64,000 bases of DNA, from the NCBI GenBank assembly GCA_020628865.1, contig JAHDEJ010000027.1, positions 1-64,000 on the forward strand, given 5' to 3'. The stretch is from Acidimicrobiales bacterium. Its GTDB lineage: Bacteria > Actinomycetota > Acidimicrobiia > Acidimicrobiales > SHLQ01. The translations under genes were made by a program, and so were the position numbers. The notes beneath the pieces were generated by a model. That model made no database searches. It was not told where the DNA came from and was given only the letters and a program-made list of their open reading frames with translations. Positions 36,393-44,533 of the stretch are shown here, one piece after another. How positions within the stretch are numbered: position 1 is the stretch's first letter; each line of letters begins with the position of its first letter.

Positions 36393-37175
36393 TCAGTTGG
36401 GGTTGGAGATGAGCGTCAACGTCGGGTTGTCGATGAGGACGCCGTGGGCGCTGCTGTTCAGGCTCCGGAACTCGAGCACGGCATCGCCATCGACCGATGG
36501 CGGGAGCTGCACCGTGAAGGTGCGCGTTTCGTGATGCGGCAGGTCGACCTCGAGCGTCGAGACGACCTCGCCGTTCCAGATGACCTCCATCGTCTTGACC
36601 GCAGGTCCGCCGTAGCCGTTCTCGCCGAGGTCGACGCTGAGGTTGTAGGTGGTGTCCGGGATGACGTCGACGGCCCGGCGGATGTGCCCGGCCCCGTGGC
36701 CGTTCATGTCCATGAAGCCACCGGCAATCTGCTCATCCTGATTGAAGGCGTTCGAATGGGTGGTCTCTGCATCGATGCTGCCGGAGAGCACCTCCCACTC
36801 GCCGATGAAGCTGCCGGCGTGATGCGTGTTCCAATAGCCGGAGCCCTCGTTGCCATCGAACCCTTCGGACAGACCGGTGTTCGAAACACCGGTCGCGGCT
36901 GTGCCGAACGTACCGCTGCTGCCACCGGCACCATTCGCAGCGCTTGCCGTCTGCGCCGTGTTCTCGTCGACCACAACCGGCTCACCGCCCATTGCCGTGT
37001 TCGCCGTCTCGATGTCCTCGCCACCGATCGACGCACCGACGGCCTTCAAGCCGCCGATCGCCACCATCGCAATCAGCGCCGTGAGGAACGCGGCTTCGAT
37101 CATGCTCGCCCCTCGCTCACGGGACAGCGATGACCGCTGTCCTCGACCCGTCTTGACCCTGAAAGCACCCGTCAT
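36393..37175 (-). CDS. Flp-like pilin fused to a choice-of-anchor C/DUF642-like domain, 260 aa
   Basis: The N-terminus (RERGASMIEAAFLTALIAMV then AIGGLKAVGASI, about 20-52) is Flp/Fap-type: a short leader, Gly before Ala, Glu at mature position five to seven and a single hydrophobic helix. A Gly/Asn/Ala-rich linker follows (70-105). Residues 110-257 fit a choice-of-anchor C/DUF642 beta-sandwich: FIGEWEVLSGSIDA, GGFMDMNGHGAGHIRRAVDV, DTTYNLSVDLGENGYGGPAVKTMEVIW, GVLIDNPTLTLI. VKTMEV and the closing LDN-like strand are the features I associate with this galactose-binding-like fold. Ordinary Flp pilins are about 60 residues. It is a paralogue of the gene upstream. Confidence 0.78.
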   Translation of the reverse strand: MTGAFRVKTGRGQRSSLSRERGASMIEAAFLTALIAMVAIGGLKAVGASIGGEDIETANTAMGGEPVVVDENTAQTASAANGAGGSSGTFGTAATGVSNTGLSEGFDGNEGSGYWNTHHAGSFIGEWEVLSGSIDAETTHSNAFNQDEQIAGGFMDMNGHGAGHIRRAVDVIPDTTYNLSVDLGENGYGGPAVKTMEVIWNGEVVSTLEVDLPHHETRTFTVQLPPSVDGDAVLEFRSLNSSAHGVLIDNPTLTLISNPN

Positions 37176-37253: not shown

Positions 37254-38039
37254 TCAGTTGGGATTCGAAATCAGCGTGAGGGTCGGGTTGTCGATCAGGA
37301 CGCCATACGAGCCGCCGTGCAGGCTTCGGAACTCGAGAACACCTTCGGCGGTGGCGGATGCGGGGAGCTGCACGGTGAACGTGCGGGTCTCGTGATGGGG
37401 GAGGTCGACTTCGACAGTCGACACGACCTGCCCGTTCCAGATGATCTCCATCGACTTCGCCGCAGGACCGCCGTAGCCGTTCTCGCCGAGGTCGACGCTG
37501 AGGTTGTAGGTGGTGTTGGGAATGACGTCGACGTTGCGGCGGATGTGTCCGCCCGCACCGCTGCCGTTCATGTCCATGAAGTTGCCCTCGATCTGGTCGT
37601 CCTGGTTGAACGAACCAGACTGCGTGACGCTGGCATCGACGCTGCCGGAGAGCACTTCCCACTCGCCGATGAAACTGCCGGGCCAGTGCGTGTTCCAGTA
37701 ACCGGCGCCCTCATTGCCTTCGAATGCCTCCGCCAGGCCGGTGTTCGACACGCCGGTCGCCGCCGAACCGAAGGTGCCGCTGTTGCCGCCGGCGCCGTTC
37801 GATGCGCTGTTCGTCTGCTCGGTGTCCGAGTTCACGACCACCGTCTCGTCGGCCATTGCCTCGTTTGCCGTGTCGATGTCTTCGCCACCGATCGACGCGC
37901 CGACCGCTCGCAAGCCGCCGATTGCCACCATTGCGATCAGCGCGACGAGGAAGGCCGCTTCTATCGTGCTTGCGCCACGTTCGCGCGGTCGTCCACGGCC
38001 GCGACAATGCTCCGCCGAGCTACCAAAATGTTCCGCCAT
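37254..38039 (-). CDS. Flp-like pilin fused to a choice-of-anchor C/DUF642-like domain, 261 aa
   Basis: ATG 38039 (MAEHFGSSAEHCRGRGRPRE) precedes the Flp core (RERGASTIEAAFLVALIAMV then AIGGLRAVGASIGG). The linker and C-terminal domain run parallel to the 36393 protein: GSFIGEWEVLSGSVDASVT, GNFMDMNGSGAGGHIRRNVD, NTTYNLSVDLGENGYGGPAA, VDLPHHETRTFTVQLPAS and GSYGVLIDNPTLTLISNPN. The two are tandem duplicates on one strand with a 78-base gap, and the Lnt gene lies 49 bases upstream. Divergence is mainly in the linker and DUF642 loops. Likely a decorated structural or minor pilin. Confidence 0.78.
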   Translation of the reverse strand: MAEHFGSSAEHCRGRGRPRERGASTIEAAFLVALIAMVAIGGLRAVGASIGGEDIDTANEAMADETVVVNSDTEQTNSASNGAGGNSGTFGSAATGVSNTGLAEAFEGNEGAGYWNTHWPGSFIGEWEVLSGSVDASVTQSGSFNQDDQIEGNFMDMNGSGAGGHIRRNVDVIPNTTYNLSVDLGENGYGGPAAKSMEIIWNGQVVSTVEVDLPHHETRTFTVQLPASATAEGVLEFRSLHGGSYGVLIDNPTLTLISNPN

Positions 38040-38088
38040 GGAATGATGAACGGCTGGTTCTCCGACGGACTGTACGGAGCCGTTCGAC

Positions 38089-39582
38089 TCATTCGACCCG
38101 ACGGCCAAAACGGGCCGCCAGCATCGCAACGAGCGCCAGGACCACCCATGGCCCAGCTCCCAGTCGGGTCGCCAGCGTGAGGCCCTCACGGCGTTCGATC
38201 GTCCCGAACAACACCTTCTGCTCGCTGATGCCGGTTCGGTCGAGCACCTCTCCGTCGGGGCTCACGATGGCGCTGAAGCCGGTCGGCGCCGCTTGGAGCA
38301 CCCACCGTCCGGTCTCCTGCGCCCGCAGCCGCGACGAGGCGATCTGCTGGCTCTGCAGGATCGTCAGCCAATAGCTCGACCCATTCGTCGGATTCACCAG
38401 CACCTCGCCGCCGTCTCGGATCGCCGCCCGCCCGCGGCTCTCGAAGAAGATCTCCCACGAAATGCTGATTCCCAACGTGCCCACCGGCGTTTCGAGAACG
38501 GCCGGGCCGGTTCCCTGACGAACGTCTCGACCGGGCACCTCGTCGCTGAAGTTCTCGATGAAGCCCCGGAGGGGGACGAACTCCCCGAACGGCACGATGC
38601 GCACCTTGTCGTACCGGCTCACCGTCTCGCCTTCGGCGGTCACCGCGGTCGAGTAGTTGACCGTCGTGTTCGGTCCGTCGCCGTGGAACCAACCGGGGAT
38701 CAGCACGGCGTTCTGTTCCCGGGCGATGCGAGCGACGCTCTCCATCGCTTCGGTCATGAGGAACACGTCCTCGCACCCGCCCAACGGCGTGCCGTCAGGG
38801 GAGGGATTCACCACGTTCTCCGGCCACATCACCAGATCGACGGGCGTGGTGATCGTGGCGGTCGCCGCTTCGTGACGGTCGAACACGTTCTGGTTTTCGC
38901 ATCGATCGGCTCGGGTGCGCTGCGGTCCGCCACCCTGCACGACGGCCACGTCGAGGGTGTCGATGACCGAACCGGTCGGGACCACGGCGCCAAGGATGAC
39001 GAGGACGGTGACCGCTCCGGCCACCAACGGGGCCAGGTCGAATCGGCGAATGATCACCAGGCGCAGCAGCTGTCCGGTGGAGATCGTGACCGCCGTCAGC
39101 AACAGGCCACCGCCCACCGGGAGGACGTTCGAGAGTGGTGATGCCACCTGTGTCATCGGAACGGTTGCCAGTGGCACACCGCCGAACGGATAGGCCCATC
39201 GGAACCACTCCATCAGCACGAACGCGGCGGGGAGCCGAATCAGACGCCCGTCGTCCTGACCCCCGGCGACCGCCACGAGGCCGTATCCCGCGCCGAACAC
39301 CACGAAGACGAGCACCCACCCGGGAGCCGTGAGATCGAACATCCAGAACTCACCCATCGCCAGCCACAGAAAGCCGGTTGCCCAGCCGGCGAAGAACCGC
39401 TGCCGCCTCGACGTGGTCTGGACGGCGAGGTGGTCGAAGATCGCGATTCCGAGGAAGGTCAGTGGCCACCATCCCCATGGGGGAAGCGAGAAGGCGATCA
39501 GGAATCCGGCGAGCAGACCGCCCGGCAGGGAATGGCGTTTCGGCACTGCCACAGTCTGGCCGAACGGTTGGCGTTTCCCCAT
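38089..39582 (-). CDS. lnt: Apolipoprotein N-acyltransferase homologue lacking the catalytic Cys
   Basis: The 497-residue protein has the Lnt layout: about six N-terminal membrane helices (residues 20-215) and a nitrilase domain (about 225-470). The Glu of the triad is in DLVMWPENVV and the Lys in RYDKVRIVPFGEFVP. At the nucleophile position, where the family has C-(Y/W)-E, the sequence reads LGISISWEIFFESRGRAAI, so Cys is replaced by Ser; VNPTNGSSYW follows as expected. The codon is TCG, not one base from a Cys codon by simple misreading alone. It may be inactive, serine-based or specialised. Start ATG 39582 has a weak ribosome-binding site. Lipoprotein genes at 39617 and 31556 are possible clients. 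Confidence 0.85.
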   Translation of the reverse strand: MGKRQPFGQTVAVPKRHSLPGGLLAGFLIAFSLPPWGWWPLTFLGIAIFDHLAVQTTSRRQRFFAGWATGFLWLAMGEFWMFDLTAPGWVLVFVVFGAGYGLVAVAGGQDDGRLIRLPAAFVLMEWFRWAYPFGGVPLATVPMTQVASPLSNVLPVGGGLLLTAVTISTGQLLRLVIIRRFDLAPLVAGAVTVLVILGAVVPTGSVIDTLDVAVVQGGGPQRTRADRCENQNVFDRHEAATATITTPVDLVMWPENVVNPSPDGTPLGGCEDVFLMTEAMESVARIAREQNAVLIPGWFHGDGPNTTVNYSTAVTAEGETVSRYDKVRIVPFGEFVPLRGFIENFSDEVPGRDVRQGTGPAVLETPVGTLGISISWEIFFESRGRAAIRDGGEVLVNPTNGSSYWLTILQSQQIASSRLRAQETGRWVLQAAPTGFSAIVSPDGEVLDRTGISEQKVLFGTIERREGLTLATRLGAGPWVVLALVAMLAARFGRRVE

Positions 39583-39616
39583 TCACGTTTTCGACGGATT
39601 GGCCGATGAGCAGTGC

Positions 39617-40951
39617 ATGACTTTGTGCTCGAGAAGGAATGCCGCGCTCCTCGCGCTCGTGTGCGCGACCGCCGCCTGTTCCGGCGGCGAAGCCCCGGAG
39701 GTCGCGGCACCGGTCGCAACCACCATCGTTCAGACGACCAGCGTGCCCTCTACCGTGGCCCCGACGACCAGCGAGGTCGTCGCCGAGACGACGGTCGCCC
39801 CGACCGAGATCGAGGAACCGCCCCCGTCTCTGGCGTTCGCATCCAGCCGTGATCTCGGCCGTCTCTACACCTTCGATCCGTCCGAAGGTGAGGTCTTCGC
39901 TTCGCTCGACGCCGCTGGCGTCGCCGACATCGGCCCCCTGCCGGCTGACCAGACGGTCGTCGCGCTGTCGGCCAGGTCCCGCGACGGCGAGCTCTGGGTA
40001 CTGGTGGGTCGCGCCGAAGAGGCCGACCGCGCCATCGGTTGGGTTCCCGCACGACTCCTCGTTGCGAGCACCGAGATCATCGAATCCTTCCAGGTCGACA
40101 ACAGCGGACAGTTCCGACGAGTCGTCAACGTCCGCTCATCAAGCTTCCTCAATGTGCGGGCCAGCGCGTCCGTCGACGCCGACGCCGTCGGACAGCTCGG
40201 ACCGAACGCCACCTTCATGCACGGCGGCTACACGGCGACGAGCGGCGACGGTGAAGAGTGGATCGACATCGTCGACGCTGCGACCGGCGAGCGGATCGGC
40301 TGGGTGCTCGAGCGCTTCGCCGCAGAGGTGTCCGGCGTCGAAGCGCAGACCACCGACGGCGTGGACGCCGCCCGTCGCGCCGACCGCGACACGACCTACG
40401 GCGGGGCCATCGGCTCCGCCGGCATCACATCGCTTGGTTGCAACGCTGCCCAGCTCACCCTCAGCGGCAGCGACTCGAGCGTCGGTACCGGCGTGCTCTT
40501 CGGAACCTCGGCCGACTACAACGGCGAATCGGGCCGCTGGTCGCTCTCGGGTGGTGGCGACGTCTGGCTGAGCCCGGGCGAGTCGCTCGTCCTCACGCTG
40601 CCTCGCATCGTCCCGAACACCTGGTACCTCGTGGCCGTCGACGAATCCGGTGCTGCGATTCCGCAGCCCTCACTCGACGGTGGTGCCGCAGCGGCTCCCA
40701 CGTCCGTTGGCGACCTGATTTCCTTCGATGTCGCCGAGGACTATTGCGGCACGCCGCCGGCTGCGCCGGACCCGGAGGAGTTGGACGAAGACTTCATCCT
40801 CGATCTCGAGGACAGCGGAATCGACGTGTCGGAACTGGAGCCGACGACCACGACGGTCGCCGAAACCGAGGCCGGCACCGATCCTGAGGAAGGCGGCGGC
40901 GACGAAGAGCCGCCGGCACCCGTCGACGAAGGGCCACCGACCTCCGCCTGA
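39617..40951 (+). CDS. Secreted lipoprotein with SH3-like domain, 444 aa
   Basis: ATG 39617 gives MTLCSRRNAALLALVCATAA followed by CSGG, a lipobox with Cys21. A Thr/Ser/Val-rich linker follows (about 30-70). Residues about 85-150 form one beta-domain (LYTFDPSEGEVFASLD, AIGWVPARLLVA) and residues 168-230 a bacterial SH3 domain (VNVRSSSFLNVRASASVDADAVGQLGPNATFMHGGY, GERIGWVLERF). A C-terminal beta-rich domain and an acidic Pro-rich tail (EEPPAPVDEGPPTSA) complete it. SH3b domains commonly bind cell-wall peptides, so an envelope role is likely. It is divergent from lnt over 34 bases and converges with the candidate selenoprotein. Confidence 0.75.
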   Translation: MTLCSRRNAALLALVCATAACSGGEAPEVAAPVATTIVQTTSVPSTVAPTTSEVVAETTVAPTEIEEPPPSLAFASSRDLGRLYTFDPSEGEVFASLDAAGVADIGPLPADQTVVALSARSRDGELWVLVGRAEEADRAIGWVPARLLVASTEIIESFQVDNSGQFRRVVNVRSSSFLNVRASASVDADAVGQLGPNATFMHGGYTATSGDGEEWIDIVDAATGERIGWVLERFAAEVSGVEAQTTDGVDAARRADRDTTYGGAIGSAGITSLGCNAAQLTLSGSDSSVGTGVLFGTSADYNGESGRWSLSGGGDVWLSPGESLVLTLPRIVPNTWYLVAVDESGAAIPQPSLDGGAAAAPTSVGDLISFDVAEDYCGTPPAAPDPEELDEDFILDLEDSGIDVSELEPTTTTVAETEAGTDPEEGGGDEEPPAPVDEGPPTSA

Positions 40952-40959
40952 CCCGCCGG

Positions 40960-41262
40960 TCAGTGGTTGCAGTTGGGTCCGTGTTCGTGGTGGATGTCGA
41001 TGGAGATCTTCTTGCGGACCGAACCCTTCACGTCCAGCTGGACGGATGAGGCGTAGCCCATCAGGTTCGGCGCAACATGGATCTTCACGCCCGCTTCGCG
41101 CACGACGCGGTAGGGGCTGAGGTTCTTTCCCTTGAGGTGCGTGTCGACCGACACGTCAAACTTGGTGCGGCCTCAACCGATCGGTGGCACGAAGTCGATG
41201 GCGGCCACACCGCCACGCTTCTCGATCAGCGCCGCAGCTTCAGGGGTGACGTAGAGATCCAT
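40960..41262 (-). CDS. Candidate selenoprotein, HesB/IscA-like, 100 aa with in-frame UGA (Sec30)
   Basis: From ATG 41262, with AAGGA five bases upstream, the frame reads MDLYVTPEAAALIEKRGG and VAAIDFVPPIG, then TGA (41175-41173), then GRTKFDVSVDTHLKGKNL without a shift to a normal stop at 40960. The N-terminal VTPEAAALIEKRGG is the usual start of HesB/IscA-fold proteins. The TGA is at the position where I expect a conserved thiol, and such HesB-like or CC/Se-motif families include known selenoproteins. A hairpin fitting the bacterial SECIS rules starts 17 bases after the UGA. The C-terminus HHEHGPNCNH could bind metal. A gene model without Sec would start at 41154 and lose the N-terminal third. 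Sec machinery lies outside the window. Confidence 0.75.
41140..41175 (-). promoter_or_regulatory. SECIS-like hairpin after the in-frame UGA
   Basis: On the minus strand UGA (41175-41173) is followed by 17 bases, then CGTGTC (41155-41150), loop GGTC (41149-41146) and GACACG (41145-41140). The 6-bp perfect stem, the G in the first two loop positions and the 23-base distance to the loop match the general bacterial SECIS pattern (stem 4-16 bp, loop 16-37 bases from UGA). Confidence 0.65.
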
Positions 41263-41348
41263 GAATTTCCTTCTCGGCAGTTCGCGCGTGGTTCGTGAAC
41301 ACGGTGTCGCCGTCGGAACATTCCCACATCGACACCGGGAACCTCCTC

Positions 41349-42023
41349 CTACAGGGTGGGTGCGAGGCGGTGGATGTTGCCGATGAGTCCGACGCCCTTC
41401 AGCTCGACATTCACATCACCTTCGGCGCTCACCCAGTCGGGGAGGTCGGCGAGTTTGCAGGCGCCGAGAATCTCGTTCGGCTGCGCGGCCGCACAGAGCT
41501 TGGCCGCGAGGTTGACCGGCTCACCGATGTAGTCGTCGCCCTCGAACAGCAATGCGATGCCGCTGGCGAGGCCGACTCGTACTTTGAGATCGGTTGCTGC
41601 GAAGTGATGAATCAGGTGCGCGCTGAATGCGATGGCGGCGGTCGCATCGACACTGACGATCATCACGCCGTCGCCCAGCCACTTGGCCACACGAACGCCG
41701 CGCTTCGCCGCCACATTGCGAGCGACTCGCCGAAAGTCGCCGAGCAGCTTCACGGCTTCATGTGGGCCATGGGCGCGCGTGTACTGCGTGAAGCCGGAGA
41801 GGTCGGCGAACACGAACGTTCGGTCGACGTTCAGGTGCGCGTCGCCCTCGGGAAGGTCTTCGGGACGCTCGAGCCCCGAGTTCTGCTTCGCCTGGTACCA
41901 ATCCAGTGCCGGGCCCACATCCGTGGTCTCGCGAGAGCCGAGCAGATCCGCCACGGGGGTCTTCGCCAACCGCGAAGGTCTCACCTGTTCGCTGTCGGTG
42001 ACCGGTATTCGTTGTTCCATCAT
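41349..42023 (-). CDS. Class III adenylate/guanylate cyclase
   Basis: The 224-residue protein consists of a short N-terminal region and one cyclase homology domain (about 65-220). The first metal-binding Asp is in TFVFADLSGFTQYTRAHG, the second in KWLGDGVMIVS. KVRVGLASGIALLFEGDDYIGEPVNLAAKLCAAAQPNEIL holds the Asn of the transition-state pair, but the partner Arg is Lys here. It would make cAMP or cGMP as a dimer. The start is uncertain: ATG 42023 is used, with GTG 42062 and ATG 42020 as alternatives. The 42062 start overlaps a GTGAAC-tgtg-GTTCAC palindrome. The selenoprotein candidate follows 86 bases downstream on the same strand. Confidence 0.8.
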   Translation of the reverse strand: MMEQRIPVTDSEQVRPSRLAKTPVADLLGSRETTDVGPALDWYQAKQNSGLERPEDLPEGDAHLNVDRTFVFADLSGFTQYTRAHGPHEAVKLLGDFRRVARNVAAKRGVRVAKWLGDGVMIVSVDATAAIAFSAHLIHHFAATDLKVRVGLASGIALLFEGDDYIGEPVNLAAKLCAAAQPNEILGACKLADLPDWVSAEGDVNVELKGVGLIGNIHRLAPTL

Positions 42024-42046
42024 TCCTTCAATTCCGCCACCTGTGA

Positions 42047-42062
42047 GTGAACCACAGTTCAC
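42047..42062. promoter_or_regulatory. Palindrome upstream of the cyclase gene
   Basis: GTGAAC-TGTG-GTTCAC is a perfect 6-bp dyad with a four-base centre, 24 bases before ATG 42023. It may be an operator; if translation starts at GTG 42062 it would instead lie inside the coding region. Confidence 0.35.
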
Positions 42063-42098
42063 GGTGTTTCCGGTGTGAACGCGTCGATTCGTTCTCGC

Positions 42099-43448
42099 TC
42101 ACGCGAGGGCCGCAGCGGCCGCCGTCCGTCCAGATCGTACGCAAGCGGGGAGCCCAAGTCCGCGCAGCATCGGACCGGCGAGGTGAACGCCCGGTGCGTC
42201 CTCCCGCAGCGCGTCCTCGAGCAGATCGATCCGGCCGGCGTGGCCGACGTCGTATTGCGGAAGCGCCTCGATCCACCGGGTCGCGTGGTGGGCGATCGGC
42301 GGGTGCTCCAGCCCGATGAGTTCGGCGAGATCCGCGCGCACGGCGTCGAGCAGCGCATCGTCGTTCATGTGCAGCCAGCGCTGGTCTGTTCGTCGTCCGA
42401 CCGACACGCGGAGCACGATGCGATCGTCTGCGATGTGGGGCCACTTGTTGGTGGCGACCGAGATGGCTGTCACCATCCGTCCCTCCAATCGGGGAACCAG
42501 AACGCCGCTCACGGCCGCGGGGAGGTCGATGCTGTCGAGCGGGAGGACCAGCAGGAGCAGCGCCACCGATGACGCATCGATGGTGCGCAACCCGTCTGCC
42601 GTTGCGGGGGCGATCGGGGACAGAAGGTTTGCAGCCGGGTCCGCTGCGGTGGCGACGACCACCCGGTCGAACCGTTCGCGGTTCACGTGCCAGCCGTCGG
42701 AAGCTCGCTCGATGTCGGCCGGCTGCCCGAGGCGGAGCTCGGCATGTTCGAGAACCCGTTGGCCAAGGCGATCGATCATCGACTGGAGACCGCTCTGTGG
42801 TGTGAGGAAGATCGGTGCGTCGGGGTTTGGTGTGGCCCGGGCCTGCATCGTTCGCACGGCCTCGATAAGACTCGGGTGCAGCTCGCGTGCGGCTCCGATC
42901 TGCGGCACGCCAGCCTGCGCGCTCAGGCGGTCGCTGTCGCCGGCGTTGATCCCGCCGAGCAGTGGGTCGACGAGGTATTCGAGGACCTCGTCGCCGAGCC
43001 GACGACGGACGAGCGCACCAACCGACTCGTCCTCGGCTGGCCGGTCGTCTGCAGCCGTGAGGTCCAACGCCGCTCGGGCAACACCGTCTCGGGAGATCAG
43101 ACCCGAGTCGGCGAGTGCGCCGAGGTCGGTGGGAAGGCCGAGCAGGTTCGGCGGCAAGGGATAAAGGCGGCTGCCTCGGGCGATCCGGGCTTCGCGGGCC
43201 GCAGGTGCGATGAGTTCGTCCTCCAGCCCCAGCTCGGAGGCGAGCTCGACCATCTCGGGCTGGCGGGCGAGGAAGGCGTCCGGCGCCGTTGGCAGCGCGA
43301 GGCCGTCGAGGGTCGTGGTGGCGATCTTGCCGCCGAGCACCGGCGACGATTCGAACACCGAGACACGCACCCCCGCATCGATCAGGGTGTGCGCGGCCGA
43401 AAGGCCCGAGATGCCGCCGCCGACGACGGCGACGCGGCGGTCAGTCAC
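42099..43448 (-). CDS. hemY: Protoporphyrinogen/coproporphyrinogen oxidase
   Basis: The 449-residue flavoprotein begins with the FAD dinucleotide motif VAVVGGGISGLSAAHTLIDAGVRVSVFESSPVLGGKI. The core region DPLLGGINAGDSDRLSAQAG and the C-terminal FAD-binding WIEALPQYDVGHAGRIDLLEDAL then HLAGPMLRGLGLPACVRSG are typical of HemY/CgoX. In actinobacteria these enzymes oxidise coproporphyrinogen III in the coproporphyrin-dependent haem pathway. GTG 43448 overlaps the end of hemE by eight bases, which indicates a hemE-hemY operon with translational coupling. Confidence 0.92.
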   Translation of the reverse strand: MTDRRVAVVGGGISGLSAAHTLIDAGVRVSVFESSPVLGGKIATTTLDGLALPTAPDAFLARQPEMVELASELGLEDELIAPAAREARIARGSRLYPLPPNLLGLPTDLGALADSGLISRDGVARAALDLTAADDRPAEDESVGALVRRRLGDEVLEYLVDPLLGGINAGDSDRLSAQAGVPQIGAARELHPSLIEAVRTMQARATPNPDAPIFLTPQSGLQSMIDRLGQRVLEHAELRLGQPADIERASDGWHVNRERFDRVVVATAADPAANLLSPIAPATADGLRTIDASSVALLLLVLPLDSIDLPAAVSGVLVPRLEGRMVTAISVATNKWPHIADDRIVLRVSVGRRTDQRWLHMNDDALLDAVRADLAELIGLEHPPIAHHATRWIEALPQYDVGHAGRIDLLEDALREDAPGVHLAGPMLRGLGLPACVRSGRTAAAAALA

Positions 43449-44472
43449 GATGCGCGTGCACGTGCTCCACGACGCGTTCGAGCACGGTCGGGTCGGTGTC
43501 CGGCGTGACGCCATGGCCGAGGTTGAAGATGTGCCCCGGGTGACCGGCGTTGCTTTCGAGGATCGTGTCGATCTCGGCGGCCACGACCTCCCACGGTGCA
43601 CCGAGGATCGCCGGGTCGAGGTTGCCCTGCAGCGCGCGGTCGGCCGGCACGCGTCGGCGGGCTTCGGCCAGGGGAACGCGCCAGTCAACACCGACCACGT
43701 CGGCCCCAGCCTGCGCCATGAGCGGCAGCAGTTCGCCGGTCCCAACGCCGAAGTGGATACGGGGCACACCGGTTTCGCCGATCGCCTCGAGCACCTTCGC
43801 GCTCGACGGCATCGCGTAGCGTTCGTAGTCCGCAGCCGACAGGGCGCCGGCCCAGGAGTCGAACAGCTGGATCGCCTCGGCGCCATGCGCCACCTGGGAC
43901 TGGAGCGAGGTGATGGCCAGGTCGGCGAGCCGGTCCATGAGTGCGAACCACAGCTCGGGGTTGCTCTTCATGAGGACCTTGGTGTTGTGGTACGTCCGGG
44001 ACGGGCGGCCCTCGACCAGGTAGCTGGCGACGGTGAAGGGTGCGCCGGCGAAGCCGATCAGCGGGATGTCGAGTTCTGCGACGAGGTTGTCGATCGTCTC
44101 GAGCACGTACGGTGTGTCCGCTTCGGGGTCGAGCGGACGCAGCCGGGGAAGATCGTCCGAGCTCGTGAACGGCTTCTCGACGACCGGCCCGACACCGGGG
44201 ACGACATCCATGCCGAATCCGATTGCGTGCACCGGAGTCACGATGTCGGAGTAGAGAATTGCGGCGTCCACCCCGTACCGGCGGACTGGCTGCAGCGTGA
44301 TTTCGGTGGAGAGATCGGGATTGGCGATGGCGTCATTGATGCTGCCTTCACCACGGATTGCCCGGTACTCGGGAAGCGATCGACCGGCTTGACGCATGAA
44401 CCAAACAGGCGTGATGTCGTGCGGTTCGCTGCGGCAGGCGGCGAGGAACGGGGAGTCGGGGCGAGCGGTCAC
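43441..44472 (-). CDS. hemE: Uroporphyrinogen decarboxylase
   Basis: The 343-residue protein has the HemE signatures PVWFMRQAGRSLPEYRA (N-terminal, with the substrate Arg), the catalytic-Asp region ILYSDIVTPVHAIGFGMD, GFAGAPFTVASYLVEG, LFDSWAGALS, and GNLDPAIL near the end. It decarboxylates uroporphyrinogen III to coproporphyrinogen III. GTG 44472 is preceded by TACGCT with a six-base gap and no ribosome-binding site, so the mRNA is probably leaderless. hemY overlaps downstream. Confidence 0.96.
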   Translation of the reverse strand: MTARPDSPFLAACRSEPHDITPVWFMRQAGRSLPEYRAIRGEGSINDAIANPDLSTEITLQPVRRYGVDAAILYSDIVTPVHAIGFGMDVVPGVGPVVEKPFTSSDDLPRLRPLDPEADTPYVLETIDNLVAELDIPLIGFAGAPFTVASYLVEGRPSRTYHNTKVLMKSNPELWFALMDRLADLAITSLQSQVAHGAEAIQLFDSWAGALSAADYERYAMPSSAKVLEAIGETGVPRIHFGVGTGELLPLMAQAGADVVGVDWRVPLAEARRRVPADRALQGNLDPAILGAPWEVVAAEIDTILESNAGHPGHIFNLGHGVTPDTDPTVLERVVEHVHAHRD

Positions 44473-44484
44473 ACCCTCAGCGTA
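44473..44484 (-). promoter_or_regulatory. Leaderless promoter of hemE
   Basis: TACGCT (44484-44479 on the minus strand) ends six bases before GTG 44472, fitting a TANNNT -10 element whose transcript starts at the start codon. Confidence 0.5.
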
Positions 44485-44533
44485 AGGCCGACCCGACCGG
44501 GTAGACTCACCATCCCCCCAAATCGCCGGAGAT

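Follow-up and report, generated by a model that had tools for sequence, protein, structure and literature searches.

Selenoproteins related to HesB have been described in bacteria and archaea and form the family TIGR01911 (PMC1794560, PMC13188914). A second described family, NF041239, is a "CC/Se motif family (seleno)protein" (Moor_selen_rel), a hypothetical protein first predicted in Moorella, and the UXX-star selenoproteins are covered by NF041114 and NF041211. The iron-sulfur carriers HesB, IscA, and SufA (PF01521) have a CSG motif and a C-terminal Cys-x-Cys pair. The bacterial SECIS is captured by the bSECIS model, which, as given in a recent review, allows a loop of 3-9 nt, a stem of 4-16 bp, and a spacing of 16-37 nt, with a G in the first two loop positions (PMC13188914).

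The window, which is the whole 64,000-nucleotide stretch of Acidimicrobiales DNA analysed here, has on its minus strand a gene that very probably encodes a selenoprotein with UGA30 read as selenocysteine (Sec) and a HesB/IscA fold (Table 1). The original prediction had proposed a HesB/IscA-like selenoprotein at this locus from a Shine-Dalgarno-like sequence, a frame that crosses an in-frame TGA, and a perfect stem-loop behind it, and all three are present. It had also anticipated that standard gene finders would call only a 64-residue fragment, and the conventional ORF listing of the locus indeed contains this GTG-initiated fragment alone; ordinary gene calling would split or lose the genes of this family. 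Judged by its codons, the protein belongs to the one-Sec members of the family (Sec30 and Cys98), and its selenium content is predicted.

Table 1. Features of the predicted selenoprotein locus in the window.
Feature	Position	Strand	Basis
Predicted selenoprotein gene, 100 residues, Sec30 (TGA) and Cys98, predicted HesB/IscA fold	40960..41262	-	Sequence, homologues, structure prediction
Frame of 100 codons from ATG (41262-41260) to the stop	40963..41262	-	
Shine-Dalgarno-like AAGGA	41268..41272	-	Upstream of ATG, sequence
In-frame TGA, codon 30, predicted to be read as Sec; aligned to the first IscA cluster-ligand Cys	41173..41175	-	Homologue codons, hhalign column
Predicted SECIS hairpin CGTGTC-GGTC-GACACG, loop GGUC at 41149-41146	41140..41155	-	Compensatory changes, zero codon variation, loss in Cys30 homologues
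Cys98 codon (TGC); 16 relatives have TGA here, followed by a hairpin of its own	40969..40971	-	Homologue comparison
True stop TGA, with no qualifying second hairpin downstream	40960..40962	-	Sequence, hairpin scan
64-aa GTG ORF, misleading fragment produced by conventional gene finding	40960..41154	-	ORF listing

Homologues retain the TGA at codon 30. It is found in all eight relatives from public Acidimicrobiia MAGs (44-83% identity) and in 31 of 31 matches among 395 genomes of the class. The order yielded 53 matches among 377 genomes, 51 of which have TGA30, one Cys, and one is cut off by a contig end; the phylum yielded 12 true matches among 396 genomes, four of them Cys forms, and one further weak match (L069) was discarded as spurious. 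The gene thus occurs in about 8% of the sampled class genomes and about 14% of the sampled order genomes, and a plasmid collection searched with a Cys form gave no match. Compared codon by codon, all 40 UGA-type relatives have TGA at codon 30, and five Cys forms (L064, L065, L067, L068, and L113), the kind of homologue that the original prediction had suggested looking for, have TGC or TGT at exactly this codon; no residue other than Cys or the one encoded by UGA was seen at position 30 among the homologues compared. A reassigned UGA was rejected, as UGA30 trades only with Cys and members of the family also end on TGA stops. The genome of one relative (L031) contains a weak second partial match (G302:C214:7757-7849; residues 1-33, with the TGA), possibly a paralogue fragment.

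The hairpin starts 17 nt past UGA30, has its loop at 23 nt, and falls within the bSECIS limits with its 6-bp stem and GGUC loop. Its energy is ordinary (fold z of about 0.3 in context), and stability by itself was therefore rejected as proof of a SECIS. A hairpin that is SECIS-like in a loose sense is found after about 10% of arbitrary TGAs (71/740). What lifts the hairpin above chance is that the TGA lies at the same codon in every UGA-type homologue and that the same hairpin follows it in nearly all of them. Across 24 distinct hairpins, 98.6% of the cells are paired, both sides have changed in three of the six stem pairs, and covariation is 0.254 compared with 0.089 after shuffling (0/500), also well over slid controls. 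For example, three relatives (L056, L121, and L124) have the compensated stem GGTGGC-GGTC-GCCACC, paid for in the protein by the replacement of both Ser and Asp with Ala, which turns VSVDT into VAVAT, and two others (L126 and L127) have AATGTC-GGTC-GACATT. Imperfect hairpins are found in L119, which has one mismatch, and in L014, the outer stem of which is weak.

The codons that encode the hairpin are also constrained. Codons 36-40 (GAG GTG TCG GTC GAC) show zero synonymous variation in the 40 UGA forms, with a codon entropy of zero versus 0.3-2.0 bits at other conserved columns. All five Cys forms have lost the hairpin and have an altered sequence in this region (EAAIDT, EVAIDT, EIAFDT, and VSVST). 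Because the VSV residues change where Sec has given way to Cys and the hairpin is gone, these "conserved" residues may owe their conservation to the RNA instead of the protein, and the family offers a clean natural experiment on this point. Judging from the alignments, what is conserved as VSVDT is itself the SECIS, and the hairpin is the feature under selection.

The complete set of Sec genes for which a search had been advised is encoded in the window genome (5.36 Mb, 113 contigs, 96% complete), and all four score over their curated cut-offs. There is one tRNA-Sec (G000:C13, 11299-11390, 65 bits; called SeC with a tca anticodon by ARAGORN), selA (380 bits) is directly followed by selB (281 bits) on contig C64, and selD (359 bits) is located on C106. 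The selD gene (L028, ~1531-1575) has an in-frame TGA of its own (GGTTGAGGCTGC) followed by the hairpin GGCGCAC-GTG-GTGCGCC, and its product is a second predicted selenoprotein of this genome. Among the 395 class genomes, tRNA-Sec was detected in 25 of the 31 that have the family and in 236 of the 364 others, an excess too modest for co-occurrence to be accepted as proof of Sec decoding. Cys30 forms occur in genomes with tRNA-Sec (G513 and G552) and in genomes without a detected one (G533 and G707), so replacement by Cys is not simply a consequence of losing the Sec trait.

Taken at face value, TGA30 could be a real stop in a pseudogene, in a gene with a sequencing error, or between two short peptides, and the 64-aa fragment from standard gene calling and the unexceptional stability of the isolated hairpin would fit such a reading. 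It is nevertheless highly improbable: in dozens of genomes the TGA occupies the same codon, the protein is conserved on both sides of it, and only Cys takes its place, which rules out the sequencing error or decayed allele that had been named as a possible refutation, and with it a pseudogene, while the hairpin is kept by compensatory changes, is lost with Cys, and is accompanied by complete Sec machinery. The central proposal of the original prediction, that residue 30 is Sec, is therefore upheld by homologue codons, hairpin covariation, and sel genes, and it is strongly supported that UGA30 behaves as a Sec codon and the hairpin as its SECIS.

Placement of the protein differs between sequence profiles and structure. 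No Pfam or NCBIfam model scores over its cut-off for the window protein, PF01521 matches neither it nor any of 24 members, and a PDB sequence search returned nothing useful. Two AlphaFold (AF2) models (pLDDT 82 and 86, about 68 in the last ten residues) were compared with solved structures; Foldseek ranked SufA/IscA-type proteins first (E 3e-4, prob 1.0, VIA Z 8-10), and the second model reproduced this. In a single hhalign comparison with the canonical IscA of the same genomes, Sec30 pairs with IscA Cys34 (probability 62%, E 7.6e-5). The fold match and this pairing therefore support a HesB/IscA (A-type carrier) fold with Sec30 at the position of the first cluster-ligand Cys of IscA, a placement that rests on structure prediction and profile alignment. 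The earlier designation as HesB/IscA-like thus holds for the fold and the residue position, and fails for sequence profiles of that family, none of which recognises the protein.

The family shares with HesB/IscA/SufA the fold, the position of the reactive residue, and the position of the C-terminal ligand pair, yet it has Sec in place of Cys, lacks the CSG motif and a detectable Pfam match, and has [CU]98-x-H100 instead of Cys-x-Cys, the second C-terminal Cys having either given way to His or gone missing. The separate canonical IscA of the window genome (L089) has three ligand Cys (C34, C98, and C100), whereas the corresponding residues of the window protein are Sec30, Cys98, and His100. The known HesB-like selenoprotein family is also not the right home: both are HesB-related selenoproteins, but the motif is [G/S]UG here and UxGP in TIGR01911, and membership was rejected because the NCBIfam scan gave no match to TIGR01911, with an E-value limit of 10 for the window protein and of 1 for the 24 members.

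The closest described relative is NF041239, the sole model in NCBIfam (June 2026) that consistently matches the 24 members. All of them match it weakly (best E 5.5e-9), and the window protein scores 25.2 bits, under the curated cut-off of 40 bits. In a profile-profile comparison with NF041239 members of this phylum (97.5%, E 7.9e-12), Sec30 falls on the second Cys of GCCGG. Those members that score over the cut-off have Cys and not TGA, in the motif GCCGG or ACCGG. The two groups are homologous, but the window protein lies outside the curated boundary: it has Gly29-Sec30 in place of the CC or C-Sec motif, Gly or Ser stands in for the first Cys of CC in the window family, and Cys/Sec98 is beyond the matched region (profile 1-86). 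By sequence, the family is a sister group of NF041239. This kinship, the SECIS nature of the VSVDT stretch, and the exchange of Cys98 for Sec in relatives all go beyond what had been predicted.

Codon 98 is TGC in 12, TGT in 6, and TGA in 16 of the 40 UGA forms. The TGA98 forms (L031-L040, L043, L046, L047, L049, L050, and L054) all have a GG- or GU-loop hairpin 17-22 nt past TGA98 that extends beyond the true stop, with one mismatch in L037. With loops placed by hand, 86 of 90 positions are paired in these hairpins, whereas arm shuffling gives 55.5 on average and at most 75. A strict GGT-loop hairpin follows 13 of the 16 TGA98 codons; among unrelated TGAs of these loci, ~0.2% have one (about 18/10,000, separated by eye). 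These relatives are predicted to be two-Sec proteins with their own second hairpin, and, if so, they insert the second Sec by means of a hairpin that spans the real stop codon. Parsimony requires at least three changes at position 98 on a weakly resolved tree. The C-terminal Cys is absent in L111, L117, L126, and L127; a Sec30/Cys98 site is therefore not shared by the whole family. Like UXX-star selenoproteins, the two-Sec relatives have Sec third from the end (U-x-H-stop), but here it is the second Sec, on an IscA-like fold, and NF041114 and NF041211 do not match. One member from the same genus as the window (L114, genome G832) has a further TGA near codon 95 (RSSE*HGNCVAL) that is not aligned to Cys98 and may reflect premature termination or a frameshifted tail.

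As for function, SelB and Sec-tRNA-Sec would decode UGA30 as Sec under the guidance of the GGUC hairpin that closely follows it. The protein may then bind a metal ion or an Fe-S cluster in a site made up of the Sec30 selenolate, the C-terminal Cys98, and, in the window branch, His100. As in IscA, this site would probably span a dimer, and the protein would serve as a carrier or redox-tolerant variant alongside the ordinary IscA/SufA that the genome also encodes; some relatives would have Sec in place of Cys98 as well. A metal or Fe-S carrier with a selenolate ligand is a plausible role that we put forward tentatively, somewhat short of probable. The fuller proposal, a new family in which one or two selenolates (Sec30 and Sec/Cys98) hold iron or an Fe-S cluster in an A-type carrier fold, is on present evidence rather unlikely; were it true, selenocysteine would be serving as a ligand in an iron-sulfur carrier. 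The main rival is redox chemistry, in which Sec30 would reduce a peroxide or a disulfide and Cys98, or Sec98 in two-Sec relatives, would act as the resolving residue. A Sec combined with a C-terminal Cys or Sec on a flexible tail is a layout of the redox type, exchange between C98 and U98 would suit a resolving residue, and most uncharacterised prokaryotic selenoproteins resemble thiol oxidoreductases according to PMC13188914. Against this, the predicted fold is that of Fe-S carriers and not of thioredoxin or peroxiredoxin, Sec aligns with an IscA ligand, and some members have no C-terminal Cys or Sec at all; a redox enzyme is a serious possibility without being the expected outcome.

Binding or detoxification of soft metals or metalloids such as mercury and arsenic, through the selenolate and the His/Cys tail, is improbable. 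Many UGA forms do have a C-terminal HxHx3[CU]xH that is absent from the four Cys30 forms compared, and PMC13188914 ties several recent selenoprotein families to metal or metalloid resistance; however, many members lack the His tail, and mer, ars, or transporter genes do not recur as neighbours, the identities of which were partly judged by eye. Neighbourhood was rejected as a functional clue more generally, as no partner is conserved between lineages: neighbours (several named by eye) are hemE-hemG-cyclase-lnt in the window and elsewhere gcvP, adenosine deaminase, metX/metY, or RNase E-rplU. Context therefore gives no support for the Fe-S role either. The one- and two-Sec forms make the contribution of selenium to an IscA-like protein testable.

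The fold, the family tests, and the second TGA, at codon 98, with its hairpin together indicate, at the level of sequence, a new bacterial selenoprotein subfamily that comprises one-Sec and two-Sec forms. The family is apparently widespread and unrecorded: no description of it in Acidimicrobiia was found in the literature searched, with earlier notice in Haft and Tolstoy 2025 being possible, and the available part of the table of 119 families in the May 2026 review (PMC13188914) has no obvious entry beyond NF041239 and TIGR01911.

Two further observations concern the surroundings of the gene. The relative L010 has the same gene order as window positions 38000-44500 (lnt, an SH3-like gene, the selenoprotein gene, cyclase, hemG, and hemE), with the selenoprotein gene alone lying on the opposite strand. 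On the minus strand of the window, 36393-37175 and 37254-38189 form a tandem pair of paralogues; their N-termini are pilin-like (ASTIEAAFLVALIAMVAIGGLRAVGAS) and their C-terminal domains resemble each other.
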